DNA from: an uncultured Tropicimonas sp.
GTDB lineage: Bacteria; Pseudomonadota; Alphaproteobacteria; Rhodobacterales; Rhodobacteraceae
Assembly: GCA_947497945.1 (NCBI GenBank)
Contig: CANMIP010000011.1
Coordinates: forward strand, 62,001 to 126,000
Direction: 5' to 3'
Length of the DNA stretch: 64,000 bases
Both the position numbers and the translations under genes were made by a program. The notes beneath the pieces were generated by a model. That model did no database searches. It saw nothing but the letters and a program-made list of their open reading frames with translations, and was not told the DNA's origin. Shown here one piece after another: positions 11,123-24,062 of this stretch (the first letter of the stretch is position 1; each line of letters begins with the position of its first letter).

Positions 11123-11557
11123 TTGAACAATTCGTCGAGATCTGGAGCGGACCTTGTCCAGCTCAAGGAGGCGGTGGCGAACCTTCCTACCGGAAACGCC
11201 CTGCCGATCCTTTCCGAGGTCCTCGAAGCGCTTGGGCAGTTGGTCGAAAATGGCCGGACAACGGTCATCGATCTCGGGGCGATCCCCTTCACCGGTGGCG
11301 ATGAAAACCTGCTCCATGAGATCCTGGGAACCGGCGAGGTGAATGCCGTCCTGAACGCGATGGGCGAGAGCCATGTCCAGGAAACCGAGATACCGGGGGT
11401 CTGGCGGGTCGATCACTACGACCAGACCGGCGAGACACAATCCCGGTTCATCGAAATCGCCGTGATCCCCGAGATCCTGAAAACGCAGATCGAAGATGCG
11501 GTCCGCGGACGCGAACTATTGGCCGAACGCCTGAACGACAGGAAGGGCGGGGCCTAA
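11123..11557 (+). CDS. HupH/HyaF C-terminal-domain hydrogenase expression protein
   Basis: 144-residue protein made essentially of one HupH C-terminal domain: VIDLGAIPFTGGDENLLHEI, then GTGEVNAVL, then ETEIPGVWRVDHYD and IEIAVIPEIL. HupH/HyaF proteins assist maturation of the hydrogenase small subunit or its Fe-S clusters. Full-length homologues are about twice as long, so this is a compact form. The frame opens directly after a TAA, with TTG at 11123 as first start. A GTG at 11174 is an alternative with AAGGAGG very close to it. It sits 19 bp before hynS and is probably the first gene of the operon. Confidence 0.75.
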   Translation: MNNSSRSGADLVQLKEAVANLPTGNALPILSEVLEALGQLVENGRTTVIDLGAIPFTGGDENLLHEILGTGEVNAVLNAMGESHVQETEIPGVWRVDHYDQTGETQSRFIEIAVIPEILKTQIEDAVRGRELLAERLNDRKGGA

Positions 11558-11576
11558 ACAAGGGAGGGTTGTGCTG

Positions 11577-12674
11577 ATGCCGAGCAGTCCACTGTTACCG
11601 AAGATGATGAAGGCTCATGGGGTCAGTCGCAGGAGTTTCCTGAAATACTGCGCGACCCTGACCTCCGTCATGGCATTGCCGCCGGCAATGGCTCCGAAGA
11701 TCGCCCACGCGCTTGAGACAGCGCCCCGGCCTTCGGTGATCTGGCTGTCCTTCCAGGAATGCACGGGCTGCACGGAAGCGATCACAAGATCGAGCGCGCC
11801 CTCGCTTGAAGAGCTGATCTTCGACTCGATATCGCTGGACTACCACCACACCCTGCAGGCCGCTTCCGGCGATGCCGCCGAGCACGCTCGCGAAGAGGCG
11901 ATGAAGGCGCATCACGGCAAGTATCTTGTGATCGTGGACGGCTCCATCCCGCTGGACGAGCCGGGCTATTCCGCCATTGCCGGGATTTCCAATCTCGACA
12001 TGCTGAAGGAAACGGCTGCAGGCGCGGCCGCCATCGTCAGCATCGGCACCTGCGCAGCCTATGGCGGACTGCCACAGGCAAACCCGAACCCGACCGGCGC
12101 AGTGGCGGTCTCGGACATCATCACCGACAAGCCGATCATCAACGTGCCCGGCTGCCCGCCGATCCCGCTGGTGATGACGGCGGTGCTGGCGCATTACCTG
12201 ACCTTCGGCATTCCGGAGCTGGACGAGCTGGGCCGCCCGAAGGCCTTCTTTGCCGAGTCGATCCACGACCGCTGCTATCGCCGCCCGTTCTACGACAAGG
12301 GTCTCTTCGCCGAGAGCTTCGACGACGAAGGCGCGCGCGCTGGCTGGTGCCTCTACAAGCTCGGCTGCAAGGGACCGACCACCAAGAGCGTCTGCGCCAC
12401 GGTGAAGTGGAACGACTCCACGAGCTTCCCGATCCAGGCCGGGCATGGCTGCCTTGGCTGCACGGAGCCGGATTTCTGGGACAATGGCGGCTTCTACAAG
12501 CCGCTCTCGGCCCCGGCCGGGAATTATCGCCGTGTTGGCCAGGCGGCCGTCGTGGCCGGCGTCGCCGCCGGTGCGGGGGGCGCATATCTCGCCAAGAAGA
12601 ACAAGGCGAAAGCGCTCGCGGAACACGAAACCGTCGACGCCTTCACGCTCGAGAAGGAGGAGGGTGAGTCATGA
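11577..12674 (+). CDS. hynS: [NiFe] hydrogenase small subunit, Isp-type (group 1e-like)
   Basis: 365-residue electron-transfer subunit. It has a Tat signal with SRRSFLK (residues 17-23) and a cleavable hydrophobic stretch. The proximal cluster motif is ECTGCTEA. The distal cluster follows H-x2-C-x24-C-x5-C, and the medial cluster follows C-x11-P-x6-C-x2-C, as in standard periplasmic hydrogenases. The extra cysteines of oxygen-tolerant enzymes are absent. A C-terminal hydrophobic helix (VGQAAVVAGVAAGAGGAYLA) probably anchors it to the membrane. The ATG at 11577 was preferred over an in-frame GTG at 11571 because AGGGAGGG is then 8 bp away. Its stop overlaps isp1. Confidence 0.93.
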   Translation: MPSSPLLPKMMKAHGVSRRSFLKYCATLTSVMALPPAMAPKIAHALETAPRPSVIWLSFQECTGCTEAITRSSAPSLEELIFDSISLDYHHTLQAASGDAAEHAREEAMKAHHGKYLVIVDGSIPLDEPGYSAIAGISNLDMLKETAAGAAAIVSIGTCAAYGGLPQANPNPTGAVAVSDIITDKPIINVPGCPPIPLVMTAVLAHYLTFGIPELDELGRPKAFFAESIHDRCYRRPFYDKGLFAESFDDEGARAGWCLYKLGCKGPTTKSVCATVKWNDSTSFPIQAGHGCLGCTEPDFWDNGGFYKPLSAPAGNYRRVGQAAVVAGVAAGAGGAYLAKKNKAKALAEHETVDAFTLEKEEGES

Positions 12675-13336
12675 ACAATCCGAATTTCGACCTTCTGATG
12701 TTCGCGCGCGGACCGCTCTTCGACATCGCGCTGCTCGTCTTTGTCGCCGGGGTCCTGATCCGCGTGGTGGAGATCCTGATCCTTGGCCGGAAGAAGGACT
12801 TCTCCAAGGCCAAGGGACAGCCGGTGCAGCAGGGGATCAAGACGATCTTCACCCGCACCTTCCCGCGCCCCGGCGCGATCAAGGCCAACCCGATCACCAT
12901 CGTCGGCGGCTATGTGTTCCATATCGGCTTCTTCATCGCCTTCCTGCTCTTCGTGCCGCATATCGCGCTGATCGAGGAGCTGACGGGGCTAAGCTGGCCG
13001 GGCGTGGGCCGGGTCGTCATCGAGGGCGCGACCGTCCTGGCCGTGATCGCGGGGCTCGCCCTGCTCTACACACGCTGGAAAGACCCGGTGCGGCGCAAGC
13101 TGACGACCTGGGTGGATTACCTCGTGCTGATCCTCAGCCTGCTGCCGCTGATCACCGGCTACGTGGCCGTCAACAAGCTCTTCGGCGATCCGACCTTCAT
13201 GATGGCGCTGCATGTGCTTTCGGTCGACATCCTGATGATCGTCTTCCCCTTCACCAAGCTGATGCACGCTTTCACGTTTGCGATGGCGCGCTACTACAAC
13301 GGATCGATCCAGGGCCGCAAGGGAGCTGAATCATGA
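12671..13336 (+). CDS. isp1: Hydrogenase membrane cytochrome b subunit Isp1
   Basis: 221-residue integral membrane protein of the NarI/DsrM-like cytochrome b type, with about five hydrophobic helices. Histidines inside helices (YVFHIGFF, LMALHVLSVD-like segment, LMHAFTFAM) are candidate haem ligands. In Isp-type hydrogenases it links the periplasmic enzyme to the cytoplasmic Isp2 and the quinone pool. The start overlaps the hynS stop (ATGA) and the stop overlaps isp2, so all three are translationally coupled. A gene between the two hydrogenase subunit genes is diagnostic of this hydrogenase class. Confidence 0.9.
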   Translation: MNNPNFDLLMFARGPLFDIALLVFVAGVLIRVVEILILGRKKDFSKAKGQPVQQGIKTIFTRTFPRPGAIKANPITIVGGYVFHIGFFIAFLLFVPHIALIEELTGLSWPGVGRVVIEGATVLAVIAGLALLYTRWKDPVRRKLTTWVDYLVLILSLLPLITGYVAVNKLFGDPTFMMALHVLSVDILMIVFPFTKLMHAFTFAMARYYNGSIQGRKGAES

Positions 13337-14595
13337 GTGCGACTGTCGAACGTGGCGTGAATGCCCTGCGCGAGCAGGTCGACGCCCCGGTTGCGAGCTT
13401 CTTTTCGAGCTGTGTGAGCTGCGGTCTGTGCGCCGATGCCTGCATCTTCTTCCAGGAAACGCAGGACCCGCAATACACGCCGATCCGCAAGGTCGAACTG
13501 CTGCGGCGGGTCTGGGAGAACGAGTACACGCTCTTCGGGCGGGTGAAGAACATGGTCGGGCTTGGCAACAGGATCACCGAGGAGGATTTCACCGAAATGG
13601 AGCAGCTCGTCTATGACAGCTGCACCATGTGCGGGCGCTGCACTATGGTCTGCCCGGTGGGCAATGACATCACGATGATGATCCGCAAGATGCGCGAGGG
13701 CATGTCCGCGGCGGGCCATGCGCCGGTCGAGCTGATCGGGGCGGCCAAGCGGCATACAACGGGCAACAGCCCGATGGGAGACTTGAGCAAGGCCATTGAG
13801 GCACAGGTCAAACATGCAATCGCCGATACTGGCATCGAGATCGCGTTCGACAAGCCGGGCGTGGACTACCTCGTGATCCTCTCGGCCCAGGAGATTGCGG
13901 AATACCCCGAAGTCATCGGCGCCATGGCGCAGATCTTCGACAAGGCCGGCGTCACCTGGACCATCGCCAGCGAGGCTTTCGAGGCCACGAATGTTGGCGT
14001 CCAGATCGGCAACCGCGACGTGGCCAAATACCTCGTCACGCGGGTGGTCGAGGCGGCCGAGAAGCTGAAGGTCAAGAAGGTCATCAGCCCCGAATGCGGC
14101 CATGCCTACCAGGCGCTCCGCTGGGAGGGGCCGAACCTGATCGGGCGCGAATACGGCTTCGAGGTGGTGCATATCATCGAGCTGCTCGACCAGCTTCGGG
14201 CCGAGGGCAAGCTCAAGACCTCCGGCAAGGATAGCGACAAGATCACCTTCCACGATCCCTGCCAGATCAATCGCCGCGGCGGCATCAACAAGGAGCCGCG
14301 CCGGCTCTTGAACATGGTGGCCGAGAACTTCGTGGAGACCGAGGATGCCGGCACCATGAACTGGTGCTGCTCGGCCGGCGGCGGCGTCGGCGCGAATGAG
14401 CGGGCCGGGCATCTCAAGGATGCCGCCTTCCAGCTCAAGAAGCGCCAGTTCGAGAAGGTCGCGCCCGACAAGATCGTGACCATGTGCGCGTTCTGCCACC
14501 ACACGCTGGAGAACGCCCTGGAAGACAATGACATGGATATCGAGGTGGCCGGCCTGACCGAGATGATGGCCGAATACCTGGAAGACGAGGATTGA
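13333..14595 (+). CDS. isp2: HdrD/DsrK-like iron-sulfur subunit Isp2
   Basis: 420-residue cytoplasmic protein. The N-terminal ferredoxin domain has SCVSCGLCADAC and CTMCGRCTMVCPVG for two [4Fe-4S] clusters. Two cysteine-rich CCG domains follow, with SPECGHAYQALRW near residue 255 and the second set NWCCSAGGG and CAFCHHTLENAL near 345-390. This is the heterodisulfide-reductase HdrD/DsrK design, in which a special [4Fe-4S] cluster cleaves or forms a disulfide. It therefore offers a thiol/disulfide-active site on the cytoplasmic side of the hydrogenase. It overlaps isp1 and precedes hynL by 13 bp. Confidence 0.9.
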   Translation: MSATVERGVNALREQVDAPVASFFSSCVSCGLCADACIFFQETQDPQYTPIRKVELLRRVWENEYTLFGRVKNMVGLGNRITEEDFTEMEQLVYDSCTMCGRCTMVCPVGNDITMMIRKMREGMSAAGHAPVELIGAAKRHTTGNSPMGDLSKAIEAQVKHAIADTGIEIAFDKPGVDYLVILSAQEIAEYPEVIGAMAQIFDKAGVTWTIASEAFEATNVGVQIGNRDVAKYLVTRVVEAAEKLKVKKVISPECGHAYQALRWEGPNLIGREYGFEVVHIIELLDQLRAEGKLKTSGKDSDKITFHDPCQINRRGGINKEPRRLLNMVAENFVETEDAGTMNWCCSAGGGVGANERAGHLKDAAFQLKKRQFEKVAPDKIVTMCAFCHHTLENALEDNDMDIEVAGLTEMMAEYLEDED

Positions 14596-14608
14596 GGGGA
14601 GATACGAG

Positions 14609-16327
14609 ATGGCAGAAAGACTGGTCGTAGACCCCATCACACGGATCGAGGGGCACCTGCGCGTCGAAGCGCAGATGGATGGCAACACCATCGCCGAGGC
14701 CTATTCCTCGGGCACCATGGTGCGCGGGCTGGAAATCATCCTGCGCGACCGTGACCCGCGCGATGCCTGGGCTTTTGCCCAGCGGATCTGCGGTGTCTGC
14801 ACGCTGGTGCACGGGCTCGCCTCCGTGCGCGCGGTCGAAGACGCGCTGAACTGGAAGATCCCGAAAAACGCGCAGCTGATCCGCAACCTGATGATCGCCT
14901 CGCAATATGTGCATGACCACGTGATGCACTTCTACCACCTGCATGCGCTCGATTGGGTGGACGTGGTTTCGGCGCTGGAGGCGGACCCGAAGGCGACATC
15001 CGAACTGGCGCAGTCGCTCAGCAATTACCCGCGTTCCTCGCCGGGGCATTTCTCGGATGTGAAGAAGAAGCTGAAGGGCTTCGTCGAGAGCGGCCAGCTC
15101 GGCATCTTCTCCGGCGGTTACTGGGGGCACCCGGGCTACAAGCTGCCGGCGGAAGCGAACCTGATGGCGGTCTCGCATTACCTCGACGCTTTGGCATGGC
15201 AGCGCGAAGTGGCCAAGCTGCACACGATTTTCGGCGGCAAGAACCCGCATCCGAACTTCGTCTGTGGCGGCGTGCCATGCCCGGTCGACCCGAATGCCGA
15301 AGGCGCGATCAACATGGCCGCGCTGAGCCAGGTCTCCTCGCTCATCACCCAGATGGAAGATTTCGTGAACCAGGCCTACCTGCCGGACACGCTGGCGATT
15401 GCGGGCTTCTACAAGGAATGGGGCGCGCTCGGCGAGGGTGTGGGCAATTTCCTCTGCTATGGCGATTTCCCGACCGGCGAATACAACGACCCCTCGACTT
15501 TCCTGGTGCCGCGCGGCGTGATCCTCGATCGCGACCTCTCGACCATCCACGACGTGGACCTGCACGAGGAAAACCAGATCGAGGAATATGTCGACCACGC
15601 CTGGTACAAATACGAGGGCGGCAAGGGCACCGGCCTGCACCCCTATGATGGCGAGACCGAGCTGAACTATACCGGGCCGAAGCCGCCCTATACCCAGCTC
15701 AATGTCGACCAGGAGTATTCCTGGCTCAAGTCGCCGCGCTGGAAGGGCAAGCCGATGGAGGTCGGCCCGCTTTCCCGGATGCTGATGCTCTATGCCAAGG
15801 GGCATGACCAGGCGAAGGAGCTGGTGGACAGCACGCTCTCCACGTTGGATGTGCCCGTCGAGGCGCTCTTCTCGACGCTCGGCCGGACCGCGGCGCGGAC
15901 GCTGGAAACCAAGATCTATCTCGACATGATGCGCGGCTGGTACAACGATCTGGTCGCCAATATCGCCGCCGGCGACCTGAAGACCCATAATGACGAGTTC
16001 TGGGATCCCTCCACCTGGCCCTCCAAGGCGCAAGGGGCGGGCTACATGGAAGCCCCGCGCGGTGCGCTTGGCCACTGGATCGTCATCAAGAACCGCAAGA
16101 TCGACAATTACCAGGCCATCGTTCCGACGACCTGGAATGCCGGTCCGCGCGATGCCGAAGGGGTCTCCGGCCCCTATGAGGCCGCGCTGAAGGGGCACAC
16201 GCTGGCCAATCCGGACCAGCCTCTGGAGATCCTGCGCACCATCCACAGCTTTGACCCCTGCATTGCCTGCGCGGTGCACATGGTCGGTCCGGATGGCGAC
16301 GAGCAATTGAAGATCAAGGTCCGCTAG
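14609..16327 (+). CDS. hynL: [NiFe] hydrogenase large subunit
   Basis: 572-residue catalytic subunit that splits or forms H2 at a NiFe(CN)2CO site in the periplasm. The L1 motif RICGVCTLVH (Cys61, Cys64) and the L2 motif DPCIACAVH (Cys551, Cys554, His557) provide the four nickel ligands. Fifteen residues follow His557 and should be cut off by the maturation protease after nickel insertion. That protease is encoded at 22095-22571. The subunit has no signal of its own and is exported with the Tat-bearing HynS. The gene order small-isp1-isp2-large matches Thiocapsa-type Hyn hydrogenases. Confidence 0.95.
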   Translation: MAERLVVDPITRIEGHLRVEAQMDGNTIAEAYSSGTMVRGLEIILRDRDPRDAWAFAQRICGVCTLVHGLASVRAVEDALNWKIPKNAQLIRNLMIASQYVHDHVMHFYHLHALDWVDVVSALEADPKATSELAQSLSNYPRSSPGHFSDVKKKLKGFVESGQLGIFSGGYWGHPGYKLPAEANLMAVSHYLDALAWQREVAKLHTIFGGKNPHPNFVCGGVPCPVDPNAEGAINMAALSQVSSLITQMEDFVNQAYLPDTLAIAGFYKEWGALGEGVGNFLCYGDFPTGEYNDPSTFLVPRGVILDRDLSTIHDVDLHEENQIEEYVDHAWYKYEGGKGTGLHPYDGETELNYTGPKPPYTQLNVDQEYSWLKSPRWKGKPMEVGPLSRMLMLYAKGHDQAKELVDSTLSTLDVPVEALFSTLGRTAARTLETKIYLDMMRGWYNDLVANIAAGDLKTHNDEFWDPSTWPSKAQGAGYMEAPRGALGHWIVIKNRKIDNYQAIVPTTWNAGPRDAEGVSGPYEAALKGHTLANPDQPLEILRTIHSFDPCIACAVHMVGPDGDEQLKIKVR

Positions 16328-16328
16328 G

Positions 16329-16359
16329 GCCGCCCGTCGCTCCGGGAAACCGGGGCGGC
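16329..16359 (+). promoter_or_regulatory. Intercistronic stem-loop between hynL and the sulfur genes
   Basis: GCCGCCC (16329-16335) pairs with GGGCGGC (16353-16359). The loop contains a small CCGG-GAAA-CCGG hairpin that competes with it at one base. It begins 2 bp after the hynL stop. Without a T-run, it is likely an mRNA processing or stability element that marks the border between hydrogenase and sulfur-relay genes. Confidence 0.45.
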
Positions 16360-16417
16360 GAACCATCGGGGACGCGCGACTGCCCCGGCAAGAAAAAAAC
16401 AGGACTGGAGAAAACAG

Positions 16418-16921
16418 ATGCTGGACGACAGCCAACTTGAGAACGCCAAGAGCATGTCGATCATCGTCACCAAGGGAACGCTGGACTGGGCCTATCCGCC
16501 CTTCATCCTCGGCACGACCGCTGCGGCGATGGATGTGGAGGTGACGATGTTCTTCACCTTCTATGGCCTCGTCCTGCTCAAGAAGGATCTCGATCTCGGC
16601 TTCTCGACGCTCGGCAATGCGGCGATGGAGATGCCGATGATGGGCGGGCATATGAAAATGCCGAACATGCTCTCGATGCTGCCCGGAGCGGGATCGCTCG
16701 CAGGCACCATGATGAAGAACCTCATGGCCAGGAAGGGCGTGGCTTCCATCGAGGATCTGCGCGAGGCGGCGGTGGATCTCGAGATCCGCATGATCGCCTG
16801 CCAGATGACGCTCGATCTCTTCGAATACTCGAAGGACGACATGATCGACGGCATCGAGCTGGGGGGGGCGGCCACCTACATGGAAACCGCCCTCAATTCC
16901 GACATCAACCTGTTCATCTGA
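16418..16921 (+). CDS. DsrE2-like sulfur-carrier/sulfurtransferase protein
   Basis: 167-residue protein of the DsrE/DsrF superfamily, DsrE2 branch. It has the Rossmann-like start SMSIIVTKGTLDWAYPPFIL, a methionine-rich insert (MEMPMMGGHMKMPNMLSML) and the conserved late motif IRMIACQMTLDLF, whose cysteine is the probable persulfide carrier. DsrE2 proteins in sulfur oxidisers are usually encoded beside tusA and rhodanese genes and pass sulfane sulfur with TusA, as is the case here. GGAG precedes the ATG. One hydrophobic segment may allow membrane association. Confidence 0.83.
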   Translation: MLDDSQLENAKSMSIIVTKGTLDWAYPPFILGTTAAAMDVEVTMFFTFYGLVLLKKDLDLGFSTLGNAAMEMPMMGGHMKMPNMLSMLPGAGSLAGTMMKNLMARKGVASIEDLREAAVDLEIRMIACQMTLDLFEYSKDDMIDGIELGGAATYMETALNSDINLFI

Positions 16922-16947
16922 ACGTAGTACCACCAAGGAGACGAAAC

Positions 16948-17172
16948 GTGGCTGACCAAACCCTCAACGCCCAAGGCCTGAACTGTCCGCTGCCGATCCT
17001 GAAGGCGAAGAAAGCGCTCAAGGGCATGGGCGCGGGCCAGGTGCTCGAGATCACCGCGACCGATCCCGGCTCCGTGGCCGACATGGCCGCTTTCTGCAAC
17101 CAGACCGGCAACGAACTGCTGAGCACGAGCAACGAAGGCGACGTCTACACCTACGAAATCAAGAAGGCCTGA
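16948..17172 (+). CDS. tusA: TusA sulfur-carrier protein
   Basis: 74-residue TusA-family persulfide carrier. The active motif CPLP (in GLNCPLPILKAKKAL) carries the sulfur-accepting cysteine at residue 12. The family end EITATDPGSVADM is intact. It starts at GTG with AAGGAG about 8 bp upstream. In sulfur oxidisers TusA hands sulfur to DsrEFH and then DsrC, whose genes follow immediately. Genome copies acting in tRNA thiolation are usually elsewhere, so this copy probably serves energy metabolism. Confidence 0.92.
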   Translation: MADQTLNAQGLNCPLPILKAKKALKGMGAGQVLEITATDPGSVADMAAFCNQTGNELLSTSNEGDVYTYEIKKA

Positions 17173-17226
17173 CATAACGCGTGGATCGCGACCGTTCACG
17201 TCCGGTCAGTCGCCCCAAAGGTGGCT

Positions 17227-17250
17227 GGCCCGGCCCTTGCAAGAGGCCGG
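17227..17250 (+). promoter_or_regulatory. Stem-loop between tusA and dsrE
   Basis: CCGGCC and GGCCGG arms flank a self-complementary CTTGCAAG centre in the 154 bp gap between tusA and dsrE. It belongs to the series of hairpins found in the larger gaps of this operon. Coordinates are approximate by a few bases. Confidence 0.35.
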
Positions 17251-17326
17251 ACGACAGAACGCCCGACGGCAAGGACCGACACGACCACGACGCAACCGAT
17301 CCCTTCCATCCAGGAAAGGATAAACC

Positions 17327-17719
17327 GTGAAATTCGGAATTGTCGTCAGCGAGGGCCCGTATACCCATCAGGCCGCTGACACCGCCTATCACTTCGCGAA
17401 GGCGGCGCTGGACAAGGGGCACGAGGTGCCGCGCGTCTTCTTCTACCATGACGGGGTCAATGTCTCGTCGAGCCTCACCGTTCCGCCACAGGACGAGCGC
17501 CATATCCAGAAGAACTGGAGCACGCTCGCCAGCGAAAACGAGATCGATCTGGTCGTCTGCATCGCCGCCGCACAGCGCCGCGGCATCCTCGACGAGAACG
17601 AAGCCAAGCGACAGGGCAAGGATGCCGCCAACCTCGCCGAAGGCTTCCGCATCTCCGGCCTCGGACAGCTCATCGAGATGGGCATCGAATATGACCGCAT
17701 GGTCATGTTCGGCGATTGA
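17327..17719 (+). CDS. dsrE: DsrE sulfurtransferase subunit
   Basis: 130-residue subunit of the DsrEFH hexamer, also similar to TusD. The sequence VVCIAAAQRRG around residue 83 holds the persulfide-accepting cysteine with the surrounding AAQRRG that defines DsrE/TusD. It begins at GTG with GGAAAGGA upstream. It stands first in the dsrEFH set and its stop is 11 bp from the dsrF start. Together with the two-cysteine DsrC nearby, this favours the dissimilatory DsrE role over tRNA 2-thiolation. Confidence 0.92.
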   Translation: MKFGIVVSEGPYTHQAADTAYHFAKAALDKGHEVPRVFFYHDGVNVSSSLTVPPQDERHIQKNWSTLASENEIDLVVCIAAAQRRGILDENEAKRQGKDAANLAEGFRISGLGQLIEMGIEYDRMVMFGD

Positions 17720-17730
17720 GGGAGCAACAC

Positions 17731-18138
17731 ATGCCTGACGCCAAGAAGTTTCTCTACGTGAACCGCAAGGCCCCCTACGGGACGATCTATGCGCTCGAAA
17801 GCCTCGAGGTCGTGCTGATCGCCGCCGCCTTTGAACAGGATGTGAGCCTCGCCTTCCTCGATGACGGCGTATTCCAGCTCACGAAGGACCAGAACACCGA
17901 CGGGATCGGCGTGAAGAATTTCTCGCCCACCTTCCGCGCGCTCGGCGATTACGAGGTCACCAAGCTCTTCGTCGAGAAGGAATCGCTCGAGGAACGTGGG
18001 CTGGACCCGTCCGACCTGCAGGAAATCACGTGGGAAGACGAGGACGCGGACTGGGAGGAGAAACCATCCATCCGCATCGTCTCGCGCGCCGAGATGGCCG
18101 ACATCATGGCCGACCAGGACGTGGTCCTGAGTTTCTGA
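17731..18138 (+). CDS. dsrF: DsrF sulfurtransferase subunit
   Basis: 135-residue DsrF/TusC-like subunit. It begins FLYVNRKAPYGTIYALESLE, the normal pattern of this family, followed by LAFLDDGVFQL. I see no cysteine in the whole chain, so it is probably structural in the DsrE2F2H2 hexamer. The ATG at 17731 with GAGGGAG upstream was chosen over an in-frame TTG at 17716 that overlaps dsrE. Confidence 0.9.
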   Translation: MPDAKKFLYVNRKAPYGTIYALESLEVVLIAAAFEQDVSLAFLDDGVFQLTKDQNTDGIGVKNFSPTFRALGDYEVTKLFVEKESLEERGLDPSDLQEITWEDEDADWEEKPSIRIVSRAEMADIMADQDVVLSF

Positions 18139-18149
18139 GGGAAGAACCG

Positions 18150-18458
18150 ATGTCCACTTTACACACTGTCAACAAGTCTCCCTTCGGTGATGGCGCGCTT
18201 CTGAGCTGCATCGAGCACTGCAAGCCCGGCGACGGCGTGCTGCTGATCGAGGATGGCGTCTATGGCGCGCTCTCCGGCTCGGCGATCTCCGATGCCGTGG
18301 TGGCGCGCGCCGCCGACGTGACCTTCTACCTTCTCGAGGGCGACGCGAAGGCGCGCGGCCTGCCGGAGGGCAAGCTGCTCGGGCAGGTTACGCCCGTTGG
18401 CTATGACGGCTTCGTCGATCTCGTCACCGAACATGACCGCTCCCAATCCTGGCTTTGA
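18150..18458 (+). CDS. dsrH: DsrH sulfurtransferase subunit
   Basis: 102-residue DsrH/TusB subunit. It starts LHTVNKSPFGDGALLSCIEH, with the conserved cysteine near residue 20, then GDGVLLIEDGVYGAL. It completes the DsrEFH complex that relays sulfur from TusA to DsrC. GAGGGAAGAA precedes the ATG. Its end lies about 50 bp before dsrC. Confidence 0.9.
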   Translation: MSTLHTVNKSPFGDGALLSCIEHCKPGDGVLLIEDGVYGALSGSAISDAVVARAADVTFYLLEGDAKARGLPEGKLLGQVTPVGYDGFVDLVTEHDRSQSWL

Positions 18459-18508
18459 ACGCCCGGCCTGAAACCAGGCCGAAACGACTGAAAGAAGAGG
18501 AAAACATC

Positions 18509-18841
18509 ATGGCCTATCAAGTGAATGGCACCGCCATCGAAGCGGACGAGGAAGGCTACATCGTCAATCTCGATGAGTGGTCCAAGGAGCTGGCCGCGGA
18601 AATCGCCAAGGCAGAGAATGTTGAGATGACCGAGAACCACTGGAAAGTCATCGAGTTCCTGCGGAACTATTATGACGAGTTCCAGCTCGCCCCCGCGGTG
18701 CGCGTCCTGGTCAAGAATGCCAAGAAGAAGCTCGGCGCCGACATCGGCAATTCCAAGACGCTCGAAGCGATGTTCCCCGATGGGGCCGCCAAGCAGGGCT
18801 GCAAGATTGCCGGCCTTCCCAAGCCGACGGGCTGCGTCTGA
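18509..18841 (+). CDS. dsrC: DsrC with both redox cysteines
   Basis: 110-residue DsrC. The flexible C-terminal arm reads QGCKIAGLPKPTGCV with CysB at 98 and CysA at 109, the full pair needed to form the intramolecular disulfide or trisulfide. TusE-type relatives used only for tRNA keep just the last cysteine. The N-terminal core (VNLDEWSKELAAEIAK, ENHWKVIEFLRNYY) is standard. The ATG at 18509 follows AAGAGG. An upstream in-frame start inside dsrH was rejected. DsrC is the substrate of DsrMK-like membrane complexes, and Isp1/Isp2 in this operon have that design. Confidence 0.95.
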   Translation: MAYQVNGTAIEADEEGYIVNLDEWSKELAAEIAKAENVEMTENHWKVIEFLRNYYDEFQLAPAVRVLVKNAKKKLGADIGNSKTLEAMFPDGAAKQGCKIAGLPKPTGCV

Positions 18842-18851
18842 ACGACCGGAT

Positions 18852-18906
18852 CCGGCGCCCGTCCCGGGATCACCCCGGGACCTTTCCTCCTCGAAAAGGG
18901 CGCCGG
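18852..18906 (+). promoter_or_regulatory. Nested stem-loops after dsrC
   Basis: An inner hairpin GTCCCGGG (18861-18868) with CCCGGGAC (18874-18881) lies inside an outer perfect 9 bp pairing of CCGGCGCCC (18852-18860) with GGGCGCCGG (18898-18906). It starts 10 bp after the dsrC stop. It could stabilise the dsrC message or partly terminate transcription before the cytochrome gene. Confidence 0.5.
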
Positions 18907-19091
18907 GCCGCGACAGGGGCTGTCCCAAAAGCGGCTCCAGCAGAACATATGCCGCAAGGGACATGCCCTTTCGAAGCGCGGTGAGACCCGGCTTCGAGAG
19001 TGCAATGGGTGGAGAAACCCGGCAGGGCTCCACATTTGCAGCAGCGAGAAATGCCTGCCGGGCACGTGATTGCAAACCCACGGAGCCAATC

Positions 19092-19478
19092 ATGAAAGCC
19101 ACCATGACCTGCCTTTTCGCCGCCTCGGCGATGCTGATCCTGCCCGCCCTGCCAAGCTCTGCCGAGGGCGACGGGAACTGGAAACGCGGCCGTATCTACT
19201 ATCGCGCCGCCTGCACCTCCTGCCACACCGATGAAGTCGGGGAAGCCATTTCACCCGCCTCCAAGAAGATCGCGGAGTGGGAGGAATGGATCAAGACGCC
19301 CGAGGGTGCCGAGCACCTGGCCGAATATGTGAGCCAGGACTACCGGGCCAAGATCGCGCCCGACAACAAGGTCGCCGAGAAGTTCGCCCCCATCGCCAAT
19401 GACGATCTCTGGGCCGATATCCGCGCCTTCGTCGTCTATGGCGCCGCGGATTCCGCCACACCGGCAACCTGCAACTGA
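19092..19478 (+). CDS. Periplasmic monohaem cytochrome c lacking a methionine ligand
   Basis: 128-residue c-type cytochrome. The Sec signal peptide (MKATMTCLFAASAMLILPAL, cleaved near PSSAEG) is followed by one haem site CTSCH at residues 41-45. No methionine occurs after the haem motif, so the usual His/Met coordination is impossible. His75 or a lysine is the likely sixth ligand. A single extra cysteine sits next to the end (Cys127). It lies between dsrC and the YeeE/YedE transporter and may move electrons in periplasmic sulfur chemistry. The exact family was not recognised. Confidence 0.85.
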   Translation: MKATMTCLFAASAMLILPALPSSAEGDGNWKRGRIYYRAACTSCHTDEVGEAISPASKKIAEWEEWIKTPEGAEHLAEYVSQDYRAKIAPDNKVAEKFAPIANDDLWADIRAFVVYGAADSATPATCN

Positions 19479-19482
19479 CAAG

Positions 19483-19514
19483 AGCCCGGCCTCGCACCTG
19501 CGCGGTGCGGGGCT
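19483..19514 (+). promoter_or_regulatory. Stem-loop between cytochrome c and yeeE/yedE-like genes
   Basis: CGCACC (19493-19498) pairs with GGTGCG (19504-19509) over a 5-base loop. AGCCC (19483-19487) and GGGCT (19510-19514) extend the stem across a bulge. It occupies most of the 56 bp gap and has no T-run. Confidence 0.4.
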
Positions 19515-19534
19515 ACGGAGGATAGGGACACGAG

Positions 19535-20818
19535 ATGGCTACCAACGAGACAGCCGCAGGCGCACCACCCGAAGAGAAGCGGTCGCTGCCCGAATGGGCA
19601 GAAGGGTTCGCCGAGGATTACAAGAAGATCTTCATCGACGAGTGGTCGCCATATCTGGGCTTCATGCTGCTCGTCAGCCTCGCCATGATGCTCATGGCCA
19701 GCGGCGTCTTCTGGGGCGTCTTTGGCGGCTTGAAGCTCTGGGGAGACCACTTCAACAACGCCATCGGCCTCGGGGCCGCGCTGGGCATCAGCGAAAATCT
19801 CAAGGGGCCGCTGGAGCACCAGATGTCGGTGATGAACATCGCGCTTCTGCTCGGCGCCTTCACCGCCGCGCTGATGTCGATGCAATTCGCCATCCGCAAG
19901 GCGCCGCTGAGCGAATACGCCTATGGCGCCGTCGGCGGCTCGCTGATGGGCATCGGCGCAACCATCGCCGGCGGCTGCACCACGGGCGGCTTCTTCATCC
20001 CGCTGACCTTCAGCGCACCCGCGGGCTGGGCAATGTGGGTCGGACTTCTGGCCGGCGCCTTCCTCGGGCTCAAGATCCTGCTTTGGGGCATGGAAAACAT
20101 CACCTGGGGCACCTCGGCGCCAAAGAACAAGACGCCCGCGATGAAGCCCTATTTCCCCTATATCGGGCTGATCGTGGCAATCGGCGTGCTCTGGTGGGGC
20201 ATCGGCTGGCTCCGGAGCGAGGACAACTACACCTCGATCCTCGCCCTGATGATGCTCGCAGGCTTCGGCATCGGCTTCGTGATGCACCGCTCGCGGCTCT
20301 GCTTCGCGCGGGCCATTCGCGAGCCCTTCATGACCGCCGAGGGCATGATGACCAAGGCGATGATCCTCGCGATCTTCGTCGGTTGCCTGTTTGGTTCGAT
20401 CCTGATCCAGAAGGGCAATATCGACCCCTATGTCGCGCTCTCGACGCGCTTCTGGCTGGGCTCGCTGATCGGCGGCCTGATCTTCGGCGTCGGCATGGTG
20501 CTTGCAGGGGGCTGCGCTTCCGGCACGCTCTGGCGGATCGGCGAGGGCCACCTGAAGCTGGTCGTGGTGCTGTTCTTCTTCGCCTGGATAGGCTCCATCG
20601 CCAGCGCGCTTTTCGGCAATCTCGGCATCACCACCGGGGACCTGGATCTCGATTTCATGGACGGCATGGTCGAGTTCTCCAAGCTCGGCTACCAGGCCTT
20701 CCTGCCCGACATGCTGGGCGGCTGGGGTCCGACCTACATGGTGATGATCACCATCCTCGCGATCTGGTGGTGCCTCGTTCGCTACAACGAGACCACCGAG
20801 AAATTCACCGTCATCTGA
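19535..20818 (+). CDS. YeeE/YedE-family sulfur-compound transporter
   Basis: 427-residue membrane protein with about nine or ten helices, comprising two YeeE/YedE repeats. Conserved transport cysteines are present in IAGGCTTGGFF, HRSRLCFARAI and VLAGGCASGTLWRIGEG. The family (including thiosulfate importer YeeE and SoxT) moves thiosulfate or sulfane sulfur across the inner membrane. A hydrophilic 40-residue N-terminus precedes the first helix. It sits between a periplasmic cytochrome and a periplasmic rhodanese protein, so it probably imports the sulfur atom that TusA and DsrEFH then carry. Confidence 0.88.
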   Translation: MATNETAAGAPPEEKRSLPEWAEGFAEDYKKIFIDEWSPYLGFMLLVSLAMMLMASGVFWGVFGGLKLWGDHFNNAIGLGAALGISENLKGPLEHQMSVMNIALLLGAFTAALMSMQFAIRKAPLSEYAYGAVGGSLMGIGATIAGGCTTGGFFIPLTFSAPAGWAMWVGLLAGAFLGLKILLWGMENITWGTSAPKNKTPAMKPYFPYIGLIVAIGVLWWGIGWLRSEDNYTSILALMMLAGFGIGFVMHRSRLCFARAIREPFMTAEGMMTKAMILAIFVGCLFGSILIQKGNIDPYVALSTRFWLGSLIGGLIFGVGMVLAGGCASGTLWRIGEGHLKLVVVLFFFAWIGSIASALFGNLGITTGDLDLDFMDGMVEFSKLGYQAFLPDMLGGWGPTYMVMITILAIWWCLVRYNETTEKFTVI

Positions 20819-20825
20819 CGAATTC

Positions 20826-20849
20826 GCGCCCCGGTGAGAACCGGGGCGC
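20826..20849 (+). promoter_or_regulatory. Perfect 10 bp stem with GAGA tetraloop
   Basis: GCGCCCCGGT (20826-20835) and ACCGGGGCGC (20840-20849) are exact reverse complements around a GAGA loop, a GNRA-type tetraloop that makes very stable hairpins. It lies 8 bp after the transporter stop and before the rhodanese gene. No T-run follows, so an mRNA stability or processing role is more likely than termination. Confidence 0.55.
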
Positions 20850-20884
20850 AACACGCTCTCCAATACAGCAAACAGGAGGAGAAT

Positions 20885-22033
20885 ATGAACGCCAGGACCA
20901 AGTTGACAGGACTTGCCATGGCCGTTGCGGTGGCATTCGTGCCGGTCTCGATGGCATGGGCCGAACAGGCCGCGCCGACCGCAGAGGACAAGGCCGGCTG
21001 GTTCCACGAGGAACATGTGGTCGCCTATGACTTCATCGCGCCCTATGCCGTGCTGCCGCAGCGCGACGACGTGATGATCGTCGATTCCCGTCCCGAGCGC
21101 ATGTTCGGCCCGGGCCACATCCCGACCTCGGTACTGATCCCGGACAGCAAGTTCGAAGAAATGACCGGCATGCTGCCCGAAGCCAAGGACCAGATGCTGA
21201 TCTTCTATTGCGGCGGCTACGCCTGCAAGCTCAGCCACAAGTCCGCCTTCAAGGCGGAGAAGATGGGCTACACCAATGTGAAGGTCTATGCGGCCGGTTT
21301 CCCGGACTGGAAGGAAAACGGCGGCTCGGTCTCGATCGACACCGCTTATGTGCAGCAGCTGATGGCGGGCGAAGAGCCTGTTATGGTGTTCGACTCGCGC
21401 CCGAAGGGCAGCAAGTATGACAAGGGCTACATCCCCGGTGCAGTCAGCCTGCCCGACAGCAAGTTCGACGCCATGAAGGGCCTGCTTCCGGCCAACAAGG
21501 ACACCGCGCTGGTGTTCTATTGCGGTGGCTTCATCTGCAAGCTGTCCGACAATTCCGCACAGGCCGCGATGAAGATGGGTTACACCAAGGTCTTCACCTA
21601 TCCCGCCGGCTACCCGGAGTGGAAGAAGCTCGTCGGTGTGGTCGCCATGCTGGTCTCGCCTGACGCCAACGGCGCCGCCGTGGCCATGCCGGAAATGGCC
21701 GCCCCGGGCGAAGGCGCGATCGATCTCGAGGAGTTCAAGGGCCTGCTCGCCGAGCGTCCCGATAACCTGGTGATCGTCGATGTGCGCGATGACGAAGAAC
21801 GCGCCGTTGCCTTCCTCGAGGGATCGCTTCACATCCCGGTCGGTGCGCTCGAGGACAAGGTGTTCGACCTGCCCGATGACAAGAAGATCGTCTTCATCTG
21901 CACCGCCGGTGGCCGCAGCGGTGAGGCCTATGATCTTGCCAAGCTGCTGAACCCGGGTCTGGACGTCGCCTTTGTCGACGCCGTGGTGAAATACAACAAG
22001 GACGGCACGATCGAAGTCACGCCGCACGGCTGA
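20885..22033 (+). CDS. Exported protein with three rhodanese domains
   Basis: 382-residue protein. A Sec signal peptide ends at SMAWA (about residue 25). Three rhodanese-like domains follow. The first two are close copies with active loops CGGYACKLS and CGGFICKLS, each carrying two cysteines. The third has CTAGGRSGEA after a linker rich in Ala, Met and Pro (about residues 258-280). It would handle sulfane sulfur in the periplasm before or after the adjacent transporter. The ATG at 20885 was chosen for its Shine-Dalgarno (AGGAGG) and signal peptide. It is the last gene of the operon. Confidence 0.88.
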   Translation: MNARTKLTGLAMAVAVAFVPVSMAWAEQAAPTAEDKAGWFHEEHVVAYDFIAPYAVLPQRDDVMIVDSRPERMFGPGHIPTSVLIPDSKFEEMTGMLPEAKDQMLIFYCGGYACKLSHKSAFKAEKMGYTNVKVYAAGFPDWKENGGSVSIDTAYVQQLMAGEEPVMVFDSRPKGSKYDKGYIPGAVSLPDSKFDAMKGLLPANKDTALVFYCGGFICKLSDNSAQAAMKMGYTKVFTYPAGYPEWKKLVGVVAMLVSPDANGAAVAMPEMAAPGEGAIDLEEFKGLLAERPDNLVIVDVRDDEERAVAFLEGSLHIPVGALEDKVFDLPDDKKIVFICTAGGRSGEAYDLAKLLNPGLDVAFVDAVVKYNKDGTIEVTPHG

Positions 22034-22055
22034 CCGATATCGCAAGGAACCGTCG

Positions 22056-22083
22056 GAAACGGTCCGCAATTGCGGGCCGTTTC
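22056..22083 (+). terminator. Stem-loop closing the hydrogenase-sulfur operon
   Basis: GAAACGG (22056-22062) and CCGTTTC (22077-22083) form the outer stem. CCGC and GCGG extend it inward over an AATT loop with one mismatch. It starts 23 bp after the rhodanese stop, between two convergent genes. The short T stretch lies inside the arm, so it may serve as a bidirectional or Rho-assisted terminator. Confidence 0.55.
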
Positions 22084-22094
22084 ACGTTCGGACA

Positions 22095-22571
22095 TCAGGC
22101 GCCTTCAGCGTTCCAGCGATCCAGGACCTCTTTCGCCAGCGCAACGGCCTGCGGAATGGCCGCGTCCACTTTCGGGCTCAACTCCATTCCCCAGCCAAGC
22201 GTTTCCGGCTCGATCCCGACAAGCACACGCCGCTCCGGCAGGTCACCGCTCAGGCGCGACATGTCAAACAGGTCCGCGAGGCCGACCTCGTGCACGCTGA
22301 GCTTGCCCGAGCGGACAAAGGCATCCATCTCCTCGCCTTCCAGCCGACGCACGGTGCCGGCTCCGGAGTGAAACTGCGCGGCGTCAAAGACGATCAGCTC
22401 ATCGGCCGCCCCGATCGGCTCCGCGAGCGTGAAGCTGAGCGTGCCGCCATCGATGCAGGTGATGTCGTCGTCATCCCCGTGAAGCGTTTCGAACATCTCC
22501 ACGGCCCGGATCCCGGCCGCCTCATCTGACATTATGGAGTTTCCGATTCCCAGAATCAGTATCCGTGCCAT
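22095..22571 (-). CDS. hupD: Hydrogenase maturation protease
   Basis: 158-residue endopeptidase of the HyaD/HybD/HupD family that removes the C-terminal tail of the hydrogenase large subunit after nickel insertion. It has the family start ILILGIGNSIMSDEAAGIRAVE with the nickel-sensing Glu/Asp, VFDAAQF in the middle and HEVGLADLF carrying the conserved histidine. The ATG at 22571 gives the normal length. An earlier in-frame start would add 20 non-conserved residues. It is divergent from hypC and convergent with the operon that encodes its substrate, HynL, which has a 15-residue tail. Confidence 0.92.
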   Translation of the reverse strand: MARILILGIGNSIMSDEAAGIRAVEMFETLHGDDDDITCIDGGTLSFTLAEPIGAADELIVFDAAQFHSGAGTVRRLEGEEMDAFVRSGKLSVHEVGLADLFDMSRLSGDLPERRVLVGIEPETLGWGMELSPKVDAAIPQAVALAKEVLDRWNAEGA

Positions 22572-22705: not shown

Positions 22706-22933
22706 ATGTGCCTTGCCGTGCCCATGCGTATCCGTGAAATCGACGGTTTTGTCGCCACCTGCGAGGCCTGCGGGATCGAGCGGGACGTGAACCTGTTCAT
22801 GATGCAGGGCGAAGAACTGGCGATCGGCGATCACGTGTTGATCCATGTCGGATATGCCATCAAGAAGGTCTCGGAGGAGGAAGCCCGGCTGAGCTGGGAG
22901 AGCTTCGAAGAGATCCTGTCGGCCGATGCATGA
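22706..22933 (+). CDS. hypC: Hydrogenase assembly chaperone HypC
   Basis: 75-residue HypC. It begins MCLAVPMRI with the essential cysteine at residue 2 that binds the Fe(CN)2CO unit together with HypD and then escorts it to the large subunit. First gene of hypCABDFE. Its stop overlaps the start of hypA. Confidence 0.95.
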   Translation: MCLAVPMRIREIDGFVATCEACGIERDVNLFMMQGEELAIGDHVLIHVGYAIKKVSEEEARLSWESFEEILSADA

Positions 22934-23318
22934 ACTCGCCATCTGCCAGGCGCTGATCGACCAGGTGACCAGCGTCGCCAGGAGCAACGGGGCGCGAAAG
23001 GTCTCCGAGATCCTGCTCGATATCGGCCCGCTCGCCGGGGTGGAGCCGGACCTGCTCGCCAACGCCTTTCCCGTCGCCTCTGCCGGGACCGTGGCCGAGG
23101 GGGCGGTCCTGAACGTCACCCCCGCGCCGGTGCGCGTCTGGTGCCGGTCCTGCGAGCTCGAAAGCGACGCGAAGGTGAACCGGCTTGTCTGCGGCCAATG
23201 TGGCGACTGGCGCACCGAGCTGCGCTCCGGAGATGAATTGCTGTTAAGGTCCGTGGTGCTGGAGGACGCGAAGTCCGATCCACCCGCGCGCCGCCCCGAG
23301 GAGAACGAAAATGTGTGA
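22926..23318 (+). CDS. hypA: Nickel-insertion metallochaperone HypA
   Basis: 130-residue HypA. It starts MHELAICQALID with the nickel-binding MHE end. The zinc site is formed by two CxxC pairs (VWCRSCEL and LVCGQCGDW). It works with HypB to load nickel into HynL. It overlaps hypC and hypB by 8 bp each, indicating coupled translation. Confidence 0.94.
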   Translation: MHELAICQALIDQVTSVARSNGARKVSEILLDIGPLAGVEPDLLANAFPVASAGTVAEGAVLNVTPAPVRVWCRSCELESDAKVNRLVCGQCGDWRTELRSGDELLLRSVVLEDAKSDPPARRPEENENV

Positions 23319-24060
23319 CACCTGTGGATGCAACGTTACCCCCGGCAACAGGGACCTCGCCGAGGGCAGGCAGGCGACCCAGGTCCTCGGCAATCTGCTT
23401 CAGGTCAATGACAACCAGGCCTCCCACAACCGGGTGCATTTCAACGGCCATGGTGTGCTGTCGGTCAATCTCATGTCCTCGCCCGGCGCCGGCAAGACCG
23501 CGCTCCTGGAGGCGACGGCGGAGCTGCTCGAGGACGGGCTGCGGATCGGTGTGATCGAGGGCGACCTGGAGACCGAGAATGATGCCGATCGTATCCGCGC
23601 CTGCGGAGTGCCGGTGGTGCAGATCTGCACCGGCACGGCCTGTCATCTGGACGCGCATATGGTGCATGATGCCCTGCACCAGCTCGATCTCGACACTCTC
23701 GATGTGCTCTTCGTGGAGAATGTCGGCAACCTCGTCTGCCCGGCGAGCTTCGACCTTGGCCAGCACAGGAATGTGGCCTTGCTCTCGACGCCCGAAGGCG
23801 ATGACAAGCCGGCGAAATACCCGGTGATGTTCCGCTCTGCCGACCTCGTGTTGCTGACAAAGCGCGACCTCGCCCCCTATATGCCGGAATTCGACGCCGC
23901 CAAGGCCGCGAATTACGTCCGGCAACTGGGCAACGCGGCGCCGATCCTCGAGCTTTCGTCAAAGTCCGGCGACGGGATGGAGGGCTGGACCAGCTGGCTG
24001 AAGCGCGGTGTCGCCGAGCTGAGGGACAATCTCGGCCTGCCCGCCACGACGGGAGCCTGA
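23311..24060 (+). CDS. hypB: Nickel-insertion GTPase HypB
   Basis: 249-residue HypB. The N-terminal high-affinity nickel motif CDTCGC is present. There is no histidine-rich stretch, so nickel storage is not expected. The G1 motif is MSSPGAGKTALLE, the nucleotide region includes VIEGDLETENDADRI, and the specificity motif is LTKRDL. GTP hydrolysis drives nickel release to the large subunit. It overlaps hypA and precedes hypD by 2 bp. Confidence 0.95.
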   Translation: MCDTCGCNVTPGNRDLAEGRQATQVLGNLLQVNDNQASHNRVHFNGHGVLSVNLMSSPGAGKTALLEATAELLEDGLRIGVIEGDLETENDADRIRACGVPVVQICTGTACHLDAHMVHDALHQLDLDTLDVLFVENVGNLVCPASFDLGQHRNVALLSTPEGDDKPAKYPVMFRSADLVLLTKRDLAPYMPEFDAAKAANYVRQLGNAAPILELSSKSGDGMEGWTSWLKRGVAELRDNLGLPATTGA

Positions 24061-24062
24061 CC

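Follow-up and report, generated by a model that had tools for sequence, protein, structure and literature searches.

The genome of an uncultured Tropicimonas sp. (Rhodobacterales, NCBI taxonomy; assembly GCA_947497945.1) contains a 14-gene block that, on balance, probably encodes a self-contained hydrogen:sulfane-sulfur reductase, in which electrons from H2 would be passed through Isp1 and Isp2 to reduce DsrC-bound sulfane sulfur to H2S without a sulfite reductase. The block lies in a stretch of 64,000 nucleotides, positions 62,001 to 126,000 of contig CANMIP010000011.1 (C11 of the 115 contigs, which total 5.79 Mb), and this whole stretch is called the window here. The genes of an Isp-type [NiFe] hydrogenase, hynS-isp1-isp2-hynL, follow a hupH-like gene and run on into those encoding a DsrE2-like protein, TusA, DsrEFH, DsrC, a cytochrome c, a YeeE/YedE-type transporter and a triple rhodanese. 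All 14 genes, identified with Pfam and NCBIfam, are open and lie on the + strand between window positions 11123 and 22033, and every gene named in a preliminary description of the window, made from the sequence before the present analysis, was found in the order given there, so that the block is confirmed as first observed.

In the proposed mechanism, the triple rhodanese would handle sulfane sulfur outside the cytoplasm, either as polysulfide or derived from thiosulfate or Sox intermediates, and YeeE would import it. The sulfur would then be relayed from TusA to DsrEFH and on to DsrC, ending as a DsrC persulfide or as a trisulfide between Cys98 and Cys109. To our knowledge, no route leads from DsrC-bound sulfur to sulfite in the absence of DsrAB. 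On the other side of the membrane H2 would be oxidised in the periplasm, with the electrons crossing via Isp1 to Isp2, which would reduce DsrC, releasing H2S and regenerating the DsrC dithiol; energy would be conserved by protons freed outside and used inside. Dark, H2-dependent reduction of elemental sulfur (S0) is described for the Hyd hydrogenase of Thiocapsa (PMC10892978), a precedent for the hydrogenase side of this scheme, and the transfer of sulfur from DsrEFH to DsrC is reported to be one-way in vitro for a cable-bacterial set (PMC13293266).

The hydrogenase carries the expected signatures. HynS has a twin-arginine (Tat) signal, RRSFLK, with a TAT_signal_seq match above the cut-off, and both CxxC motifs of HynL are intact (Cys61/64 and Cys551/554); together with the position of hynS and hynL on either side of isp1-isp2, these features place the enzyme among the Isp-type [NiFe] hydrogenases of group 1, presumably in HydDB subgroup 1e. 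Besides two [4Fe-4S] motifs, Isp2 has a single CCG motif, which is intact (C310, C345, C346, C385, C388), and CCG clusters are of the kind found in heterodisulfide reductases and DsrK. The scores of Isp2 are below the cut-offs of all NCBIfam families matched, DsrK (227.7 bits, cut-off 400), TmcB (208.4, cut-off 735) and HmcF (201.2, cut-off 750), and a long branch separates it from DsrK in the tree; a role with DsrC is also ascribed to the Tmc and Hmc complexes. The resemblance of Isp1 to NarI is weak (18.8 bits, cut-off 22.9), and its TmcC and HmcE matches are likewise below the cut-offs. The roles assigned here to the CCG and CxxC motifs and to the cysteines of TusA, DsrE, DsrH and DsrC are the established ones.

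Of the known users of DsrC, neither dsrA nor DsrK was found in the same genome. Searches for dsrA (TIGR02064) covered eight genomes, with Aliiruegeria sabulilitoris outside the set and dsrB without a search of its own. Only partial matches of at most 50.7 bits, against a cut-off of 392.85, were obtained in the window genome, in Tropicimonas marinistellae (G797) and in genome G661, all three of them module-bearing, whereas all five searched genomes without the module (5/5) have dsrA above the cut-off. The proteins of the window genome with a CCG domain (E≤0.001) are Isp2, GlcF (468.5 bits, cut-off 333) and one protein in the position of GlpC; none is a DsrK above the cut-off and none an sHdrB, DsrM, J, O and P not having been searched. 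A dsrABMKJOP cluster elsewhere in the genome, which would have accounted for dsrEFHC in another way, is therefore not indicated by the dsrA and DsrK searches. The matches to the dsrA and soxB models fall on contigs C3, C14, C6 and C7, and none falls in the window stretch of C11, in agreement with the preliminary description as regards dsrA and soxB. The absence of soxB holds for the window and not for the genome: a true soxB is encoded on C3 (828.4 bits), SoxB is above the cut-off in 8/8 genomes searched, and SoxX, SoxY, SoxZ, SoxA and SoxC of the window genome also exceed their cut-offs, with SoxD recognised by position and haem motifs only. The module genomes thus resemble a natural knock-out of dsrAB and dsrMK, which makes Isp2 the best remaining candidate for the DsrC partner.

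Origin of the sulfur relay and remodelling of DsrC

The relay genes have close counterparts in the reverse dissimilatory sulfite reductase (rDsr) clusters of Rhodobacteraceae. In a metagenome-assembled genome (MAG) of this family (L164), the operon dsrA-B-E-F-H-C-M-K-L-J-O-P has dsrE2-tusA nearby, and the window proteins are identical to its products at 84% (DsrE), 87% (DsrF), 70% (TusA), 64% (DsrC) and 62% (DsrH) of positions, with DsrE2 75% identical over 67 amino acids. A concatenated DsrE-F-H-C tree was built from 47 rows, 46 of them distinct, including 43 rDsr rows, of which 42 are distinct because L164 and L170 are one cluster. In this tree the four module rows (support 1.0) are nested within the Rhodobacteraceae rDsr clusters, nearest to L171 (0.83) and L169 (0.96). 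A tree of DsrC alone places the module only coarsely: on a long stem, it joins alphaproteobacterial rDsr DsrCs in a group of 31 tips (0.905), with support of 0.34 for its exact place, so that the origin rests on the four-protein tree. Judged from that tree, the dsrEFHC block is descended from a Rhodobacteraceae rDsr operon, and the module comprises dsrEFH with a two-cysteine dsrC of rDsr descent.

Relatives of the YeeE transporter were found in a sample of 385 genomes at 54-58% identity in three and at 44-46% in six others, and eight of the nine other genomes carrying such a relative also have a full-length DsrC (1e-38). In one of them (L237) matches to the cytochrome, YeeE and the rhodanese occur in the order seen in the window. 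The cytochrome c-YeeE pairs of L237 (4840-10114) and L238 (6543-9906), both in DsrC-bearing genomes, lie near a multihaem Cytochrome_cB-family cytochrome, with the rhodanese in L237. The triple rhodanese itself (E≤1e-40) was found in 2/149 genomes of the family, both of which carry the module. The module probably arose from an rDsr relay block that no longer had dsrAB and dsrMKLJOPN with it. This block would have been combined with an Isp hydrogenase and with the trio of cytochrome, YeeE and rhodanese genes, for which another Pseudomonadota genome has a counterpart, and DsrC would afterwards have changed residues fixed by sulfite reductase and/or DsrMK while its redox arm was retained.

The cysteines of the relay are kept: TusA Cys13, DsrE Cys78 (47/47 rows) and DsrH Cys20 (4/4 module rows and 35/43 others). 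In DsrC both redox cysteines, Cys98 and Cys109, are present in the C-terminal end CKIAGLPKPTGCV, and these cysteines and the whole terminal arm are identical among the four module DsrCs. Elsewhere the protein differs. The replacements Y84T, Y86E, L88M, P93A and A97G occur in all four module DsrCs at sites that are invariant in the 43 rDsr rows, and Y58F occurs at a site conserved in 42/43. Three solved DsrCs (1yx3, 1sau and 2xsj, aligned from eight PDB matches) also have Y86, L88, P93 and A97 in 3/3 and Y84 in 2/3. The mean identity of the module proteins to those of 16 rDsr clusters of the family, compared with the identity within the family, is 65.0% vs 83.3% for DsrC, but 81.1% vs 85.2% for DsrE, 84.3% vs 86.4% for DsrF and 60.6% vs 65.2% for DsrH, and the stem of module DsrC measures 0.34 substitutions per site. 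On these comparisons DsrC alone is the protein that has sped up in the module, DsrE, DsrF and DsrH having stayed ordinary. Since five invariant sites were changed and the arm with its cysteines was kept, we infer that a constraint imposed by sulfite reductase and/or DsrMK was lost and that the redox arm would still have a partner. Assignment of module DsrC to TusE fails, the PRK11508 score being 114.3 bits against a cut-off of 191, and both arm cysteines are present.

Distribution of Isp2, DsrC and the complete module

The occurrence of the Isp2 clade was compared with that of DsrC in 149 genomes of the family, using an Isp2 cut-off of 1e-110, set before DsrC was searched there, and a DsrC-family match at E≤0.001. 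Isp2 of the window clade is found in 10 genomes and a DsrC-family gene in 16, leaving 133 genomes without a DsrC-family match. DsrC accompanies the Isp2 clade in 10/10 genomes, as against 6/139 of the others (Fisher 7e-12), and after removal of the genus of the window the figures are 8/8 and 6/139 (Fisher 7e-10). The setting of isp1-isp2 in the ten genomes is a formate dehydrogenase operon in six and a hydrogenase operon in three, one locus being cut by a contig end. In a further set of genomes a DsrC-family gene is present in 52/52 in-clade and 3/8 out-of-clade genomes, four of the former (G353, G817, G818 and G819) having weaker DsrC-family matches only. Expressed on the Isp2 tree, in which no two tips are identical, 62/62 tested tips of one clade (support 1.0) and 3/8 outside it belong to genomes with a DsrC-family gene, a count that leaves out 35 tips untested for DsrC. 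Module Isp2 falls in a mostly alphaproteobacterial clade of 26 tips (support 1.0), of which 25 are DsrC-positive and one is untested. Out-of-clade loci linked to formate dehydrogenase (L030 and L031) belong to genomes without DsrC, and another, beside a formate-dehydrogenase-type cytochrome b (L036), to a genome with it. In the phylum sample full-length DsrC (1e-38) occurs in 9/10 Isp2-clade genomes vs 95/388 others (p = 3e-5). The weight is carried by the alphaproteobacterial counts, because gammaproteobacterial TusE also matches PF04358, and all of these counts are uncorrected for shared ancestry.

The synteny of the block was mapped with 18 window proteins by tblastn on 89 loci, 80 from the named genomes and nine from genomes of the family; the named-genome Isp2 scan is represented by its best 80 loci, many of them ended by contig ends, and Isp2 was also searched in 289 class, 398 phylum and the 149 family genomes, these samples overlapping. 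The full block recurs in T. marinistellae (L055), A. sabulilitoris (L056) and an uncultured Tropicimonas (L057, the same genome as L046), whose Isp2 proteins are 95%, 93% and 92% identical, respectively, to that of the window and are the closest among the matches listed in named genomes. The conserved synteny anticipated in the preliminary description is thus present in three relatives. Across the samples the hydrogenase part is common and the complete module rare. In pairwise comparisons of the window, L046, L055 and L056 (6/6 pairs), 13 genes have no internal stops and ratios of non-synonymous to synonymous substitution rates (dN/dS) of 0.018-0.183, and these 13 genes are under purifying selection. 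The recurrence of the order in three further genomes, together with these ratios, argues against a chance assembly. That the block is a decaying rDsr remnant lying by chance beside a hydrogenase is hardly credible and already largely refuted by dN/dS: an rDsr operon is indeed the source of dsrEFHC, but the 13 tested genes are open in four genomes under selection, with the sulfur-binding cysteines kept.

DsrC-family genes also adjoin an Isp hydrogenase in MAGs of Gammaproteobacteria (L119:10701-11069, L120:11349-11681 and L130:6954-7196). They were dropped as independent examples of the synteny, since their tails (GLPDCHCRG, GLPAPVGRSCG) lack KPTGCV. In several other Isp2-clade genomes (L200-L203, L215 and L224) the order dsrC-dsrM-dsrK was observed, with no dsrEFH in the available stretch.

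Electron route and competing explanations

A path from H2 through HydSL and Isp to a DsrC disulfide is an already published hypothesis: it is put forward as a possible route in a purple sulfur bacterium (PMC5944118), a related proposal for Allochromatium vinosum is cited in PMC7787665, and electron transfer by Isp1 and Isp2 of Thiocapsa is described as required for hydrogenase activity in vivo (PMC3102683). A described partner of DsrC is DsrMK (PMC5944118, PMC13293266). The purple sulfur bacteria to which the Isp2-DsrC proposal applies also have dsrAB and dsrMK, both users of DsrC (PMC5944118, PMC10892978), and the module genomes are those that have lost rDsr and still show the link between Isp and DsrC. 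The remark in the preliminary description that its author was aware of no described system of this composition therefore survives in part. It is consistent with a survey of titles and abstract openings of the open-licence papers listed, among which no hydrogenase-tusA-dsrEFH-dsrC operon without dsrAB was encountered, but the step from Isp to a DsrC disulfide was already in print (PMC5944118). As far as the literature searched extends, four points appear to be new: a module that stands alone, its descent from rDsr, the remodelling of its DsrC and the joint occurrence of Isp2 and DsrC.

Several known systems share parts of the module. The Isp [NiFe] hydrogenase (HydSL/HynSL) of Thiocapsa, Allochromatium and Thiodictyon has the same four genes, in Thiocapsa in the same order (PMC10892978), but in these organisms dsrAB and dsrMK are described as part of a dsr operon elsewhere in the genome (PMC5944118, PMC10892978), whereas in the module the relay genes are inside the hydrogenase block. 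With the rDsr pathway the module shares matching dsrE2, tusA, dsrEFH and dsrC genes; it differs in that its genome has no dsrA at the cut-off and no DsrK found, and in the loss of five invariant DsrC residues. Compared with DsrMK, TmcBC and HmcEF of sulfate reducers, Isp1 resembles TmcC and HmcE, and Isp2 resembles DsrK, TmcB and HmcF, at scores far below the cut-offs. The cable-bacterial DsrEFH type II set has the TusA-DsrEFH-DsrC relay and a YeeE-like importer in common with the module, but it feeds DsrAB and DsrMKJ, and the main text of that source nowhere uses the word hydrogenase (PMC13293266). Formate dehydrogenase-Isp1-Isp2 operons of Rhodobacteraceae belong to the same Isp clade and occur in DsrC-bearing genomes, but their donor is formate, no relay genes were found alongside, and DsrC is in an rDsr operon elsewhere. 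Finally, the Sulfolobales hydrogenase has its genes in the same order and is likewise linked to the reduction of S0; its electrons are thought to travel via quinones to SreABC, and the passage concerned mentions no DsrC relay (PMC8551704).

These comparisons lead to the alternative that two separate systems are combined in the block, H2 being respired through Isp1 and the quinone pool and the relay separately providing sulfur to biosynthetic or detoxifying processes (tRNA, Fe-S clusters, molybdenum cofactor, persulfide control). We regard this as unlikely, although it is the most serious of the competitors. The quinone route proposed for the hynS-isp1-isp2-hynL genes of Sulfolobales (PMC8551704) speaks for it, as do the association of Isp1-Isp2 with formate dehydrogenase and the scores of DsrE, DsrF and DsrH, which exceed the joint TusD/DsrE, TusC/DsrF and TusB/DsrH cut-offs. 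The absence of a DsrC-family match from 133/149 genomes of the family, however, implies that ordinary tRNA thiolation there needs no DsrC. Module DsrC has both cysteines and scores below the cut-off as a TusE, and Isp2 and DsrC are strongly associated within the family.

A reversed flow is improbable. Here Isp2 would oxidise relay-loaded DsrC dithiols to the trisulfide as the first step of sulfur oxidation and release the electrons as H2 or pass them to quinone. Redox potentials make the evolution of H2 by thiols energetically unfavourable at common H2 levels, no oxidative outlet for a DsrC trisulfide is known without DsrAB, and SoxC is available for the oxidation of sulfane sulfur outside. 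The reversed direction would fit the derivation of TusA-DsrEFH-DsrC from an rDsr operon, the full-length DsrC in most of the other genomes with a YeeE relative, the SoxY- and SoxZ-like genes recognised by reading the L238 stretch, and the description of Hyd as reversible (PMC10892978).

A still smaller chance is given to the possibility that DsrC is mainly a sulfur-sensing regulator or sulfur buffer of the hydrogenase operon rather than an electron acceptor. Binding of A. vinosum DsrC to a DNA region upstream of dsr has been reported (PMC5944118), the DsrC-family genes with altered tails adjoin Isp hydrogenases in L119, L120 and L130, and many residues of module DsrC have changed. A regulator, however, would have no need of DsrEFH, TusA, YeeE and rhodaneses, and the redox cysteines and the entire arm are identical in the four module DsrCs.

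Several points weigh against the proposed hydrogen:sulfane-sulfur reductase as well. The Isp2-DsrC contact, the activity, the direction of electron flow, the conservation of energy and the co-transcription of the whole gene set are inferred. The module-specific changes of Isp2 amount to six weak positions, none of which shifts the CCG motif towards DsrK, and no signal of co-evolution is seen in Isp2. The Sulfolobales hynS-isp1-isp2-hynL, thought to feed a sulfur reductase via quinones, has an Isp2 of unknown function (PMC8551704), and Isp1-Isp2 of the same clade also occur in formate dehydrogenase operons. In the clade genomes without the module whose best DsrC loci were fetched, DsrC adjoins dsrM, and also dsrK wherever the stretch extends that far, so that the co-occurrence may mirror a shared sulfur lifestyle. 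The full synteny is rare, being found in 3/80 of the best named-genome loci besides the window, and no match to tusA, dsrE, dsrF, dsrH or dsrC was obtained near isp2 in the class and phylum loci (0/17), some of which are cut by contig ends. Lastly, the HmcF/TmcB-like protein in the position of GlpC, about 27% identical to Isp2, is a weak alternative candidate for the DsrC partner.

This GlpC-position protein has 431 amino acids, is encoded directly upstream of GlpA and GlpB on contig C18 of the window genome (L159:8802-10097), and scores best with HmcF (188.6 bits, cut-off 750). Its assignment as a plain GlpC was dropped because the NCBIfam HmcF and TmcB scores are higher, despite the GlpA and GlpB neighbours. 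In T. marinistellae the corresponding gene (L055:2171-3463) precedes hupH by about 4 kb. The sequence CCSAGGG in the CCG motif of module Isp2 was likewise discarded as a special mark, a relative having CCSGGGG, and a PDB sequence search listed no chain named DsrK that could serve for mapping contacts.

The reduction of DsrC by H2 through Isp2, as advanced in the preliminary description, is favoured by the co-occurrence of the Isp2 clade with DsrC and by the remodelling of DsrC alone. A tie of Isp2 to DsrC in every lineage is not upheld, because of the same-clade formate dehydrogenase operons and the quinone route of Sulfolobales (PMC8551704). In a wider interpretation, which we advance tentatively as falling somewhat short of probable, DsrC would have been freed from sulfite reductase to become a dedicated cytoplasmic acceptor of electrons and sulfur for periplasmic H2. 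The resulting hydrogen-sulfur respiration would be independent of DsrAB and assembled from spare rDsr parts; in a broader form of this idea, one Isp1-Isp2 clade, joined to hydrogenase or formate dehydrogenase, would be a general point of entry through which electrons from the periplasm reach DsrC, in parallel with DsrMK. If this is true, DsrC is a free-standing redox carrier beyond its role as a co-substrate of sulfite reductase, and H2 can drive sulfide release in Sox-bearing marine Rhodobacterales that are otherwise read as sulfur oxidisers only. The module-bearing species include named isolates, which makes the Isp2-DsrC question directly testable.

Gene layout and neighbouring genes

The genes of the block and the adjoining hydrogenase accessory genes are listed in the table. 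For five genes, start sites probably better than those of the open reading frame (ORF) list were chosen, at 17731 (dsrF), 18150 (dsrH), 18509 (dsrC), 19092 (cytochrome) and 20885 (rhodanese). No terminator-like site was found on the + strand in 11123-20369; in 9900-23000 there are 11 such sites vs 10.2 in shuffled sequences, and the promoter and terminator scans were uninformative.

Table. Genes of the hydrogenase-sulfur relay block and adjacent maturation genes, in window positions; scores in bits.
Gene or product	Position	Strand	Evidence and remarks
hupH-like hydrogenase expression gene	11123..11557	+	HupH_C 98.7; alternative start 11174
hynS, exported [NiFe] hydrogenase small subunit	11604..12674	+	TIGR00391 411.7 (cut-off 179.5); ORF opening 11571
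isp1, NarI/DsrM/TmcC-type membrane cytochrome b	12671..13336	+	Best NCBIfam match TmcC 132.9 (cut-off 240)
isp2, HdrD/DsrK-like	13333..14595	+	CCG 58.8; best NCBIfam match DsrK 227.7 (cut-off 400)
hynL, [NiFe] large subunit with C-terminal extension	14609..16327	+	PF00374 790.3
dsrE2-like sulfurtransferase	16418..16921	+	DsrE_2, PF13686 171.6
tusA, sulfur carrier (Cys13)	16948..17172	+	PF01206 81.9
dsrE	17327..17719	+	TusD/DsrE TIGR03012 161.8
dsrF	17731..18138	+	TusC/DsrF TIGR03010 110.9
dsrH	18150..18458	+	TusB/DsrH TIGR03011 90.2
dsrC	18509..18841	+	PF04358 147.1; sole DsrC match of the genome
Cytochrome c, signal-like start, one CxxCH (Cys41/44)	19092..19478	+	Cytochrome_CBB3/Cytochrom_C below Pfam cut-offs
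YeeE/YedE-type sulfur transporter	19535..20818	+	Sulf_transp PF04143 146.2
Triple-rhodanese protein, signal-like start	20885..22033	+	PF00581, three stretches
Hydrogenase maturation protease, HycI family (accessory)	22095..22532	-	PF01750 83.4
hypC, hypA, hypB, hypD, hypF, hydrogenase maturation (accessory)	22706..27475	+	Pfam

Formate dehydrogenase genes were met both in the window and at related loci. In six Rhodobacteraceae loci (L048 and L050-L054) Isp1-Isp2 of the hydrogenase clade accompany a formate dehydrogenase, and 6/6 of these genomes bear DsrC, so that a route from formate to DsrC is possible there. The window itself encodes, at 51559-57712, a formate dehydrogenase with the gene order fdhA-fdhB-cytochrome b-WD40/cytochrome c and without isp1-isp2; in the DsrC-bearing relatives L052-L054, the same operon has isp1-isp2 after the cytochrome b gene and before the WD40 gene. 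A short DUF6494 gene (46091-46282) lies beside the gene of an Mrp-type ATPase and accessory genes of formate dehydrogenase, and a DUF6494-like protein was recognised by reading the sequence after isp2 in L030. Near the formate dehydrogenase genes, the region 41607-43827 probably encodes an ABC transporter whose binding protein belongs to PBP_like_2 and which by reading appears to be of the tungstate type.

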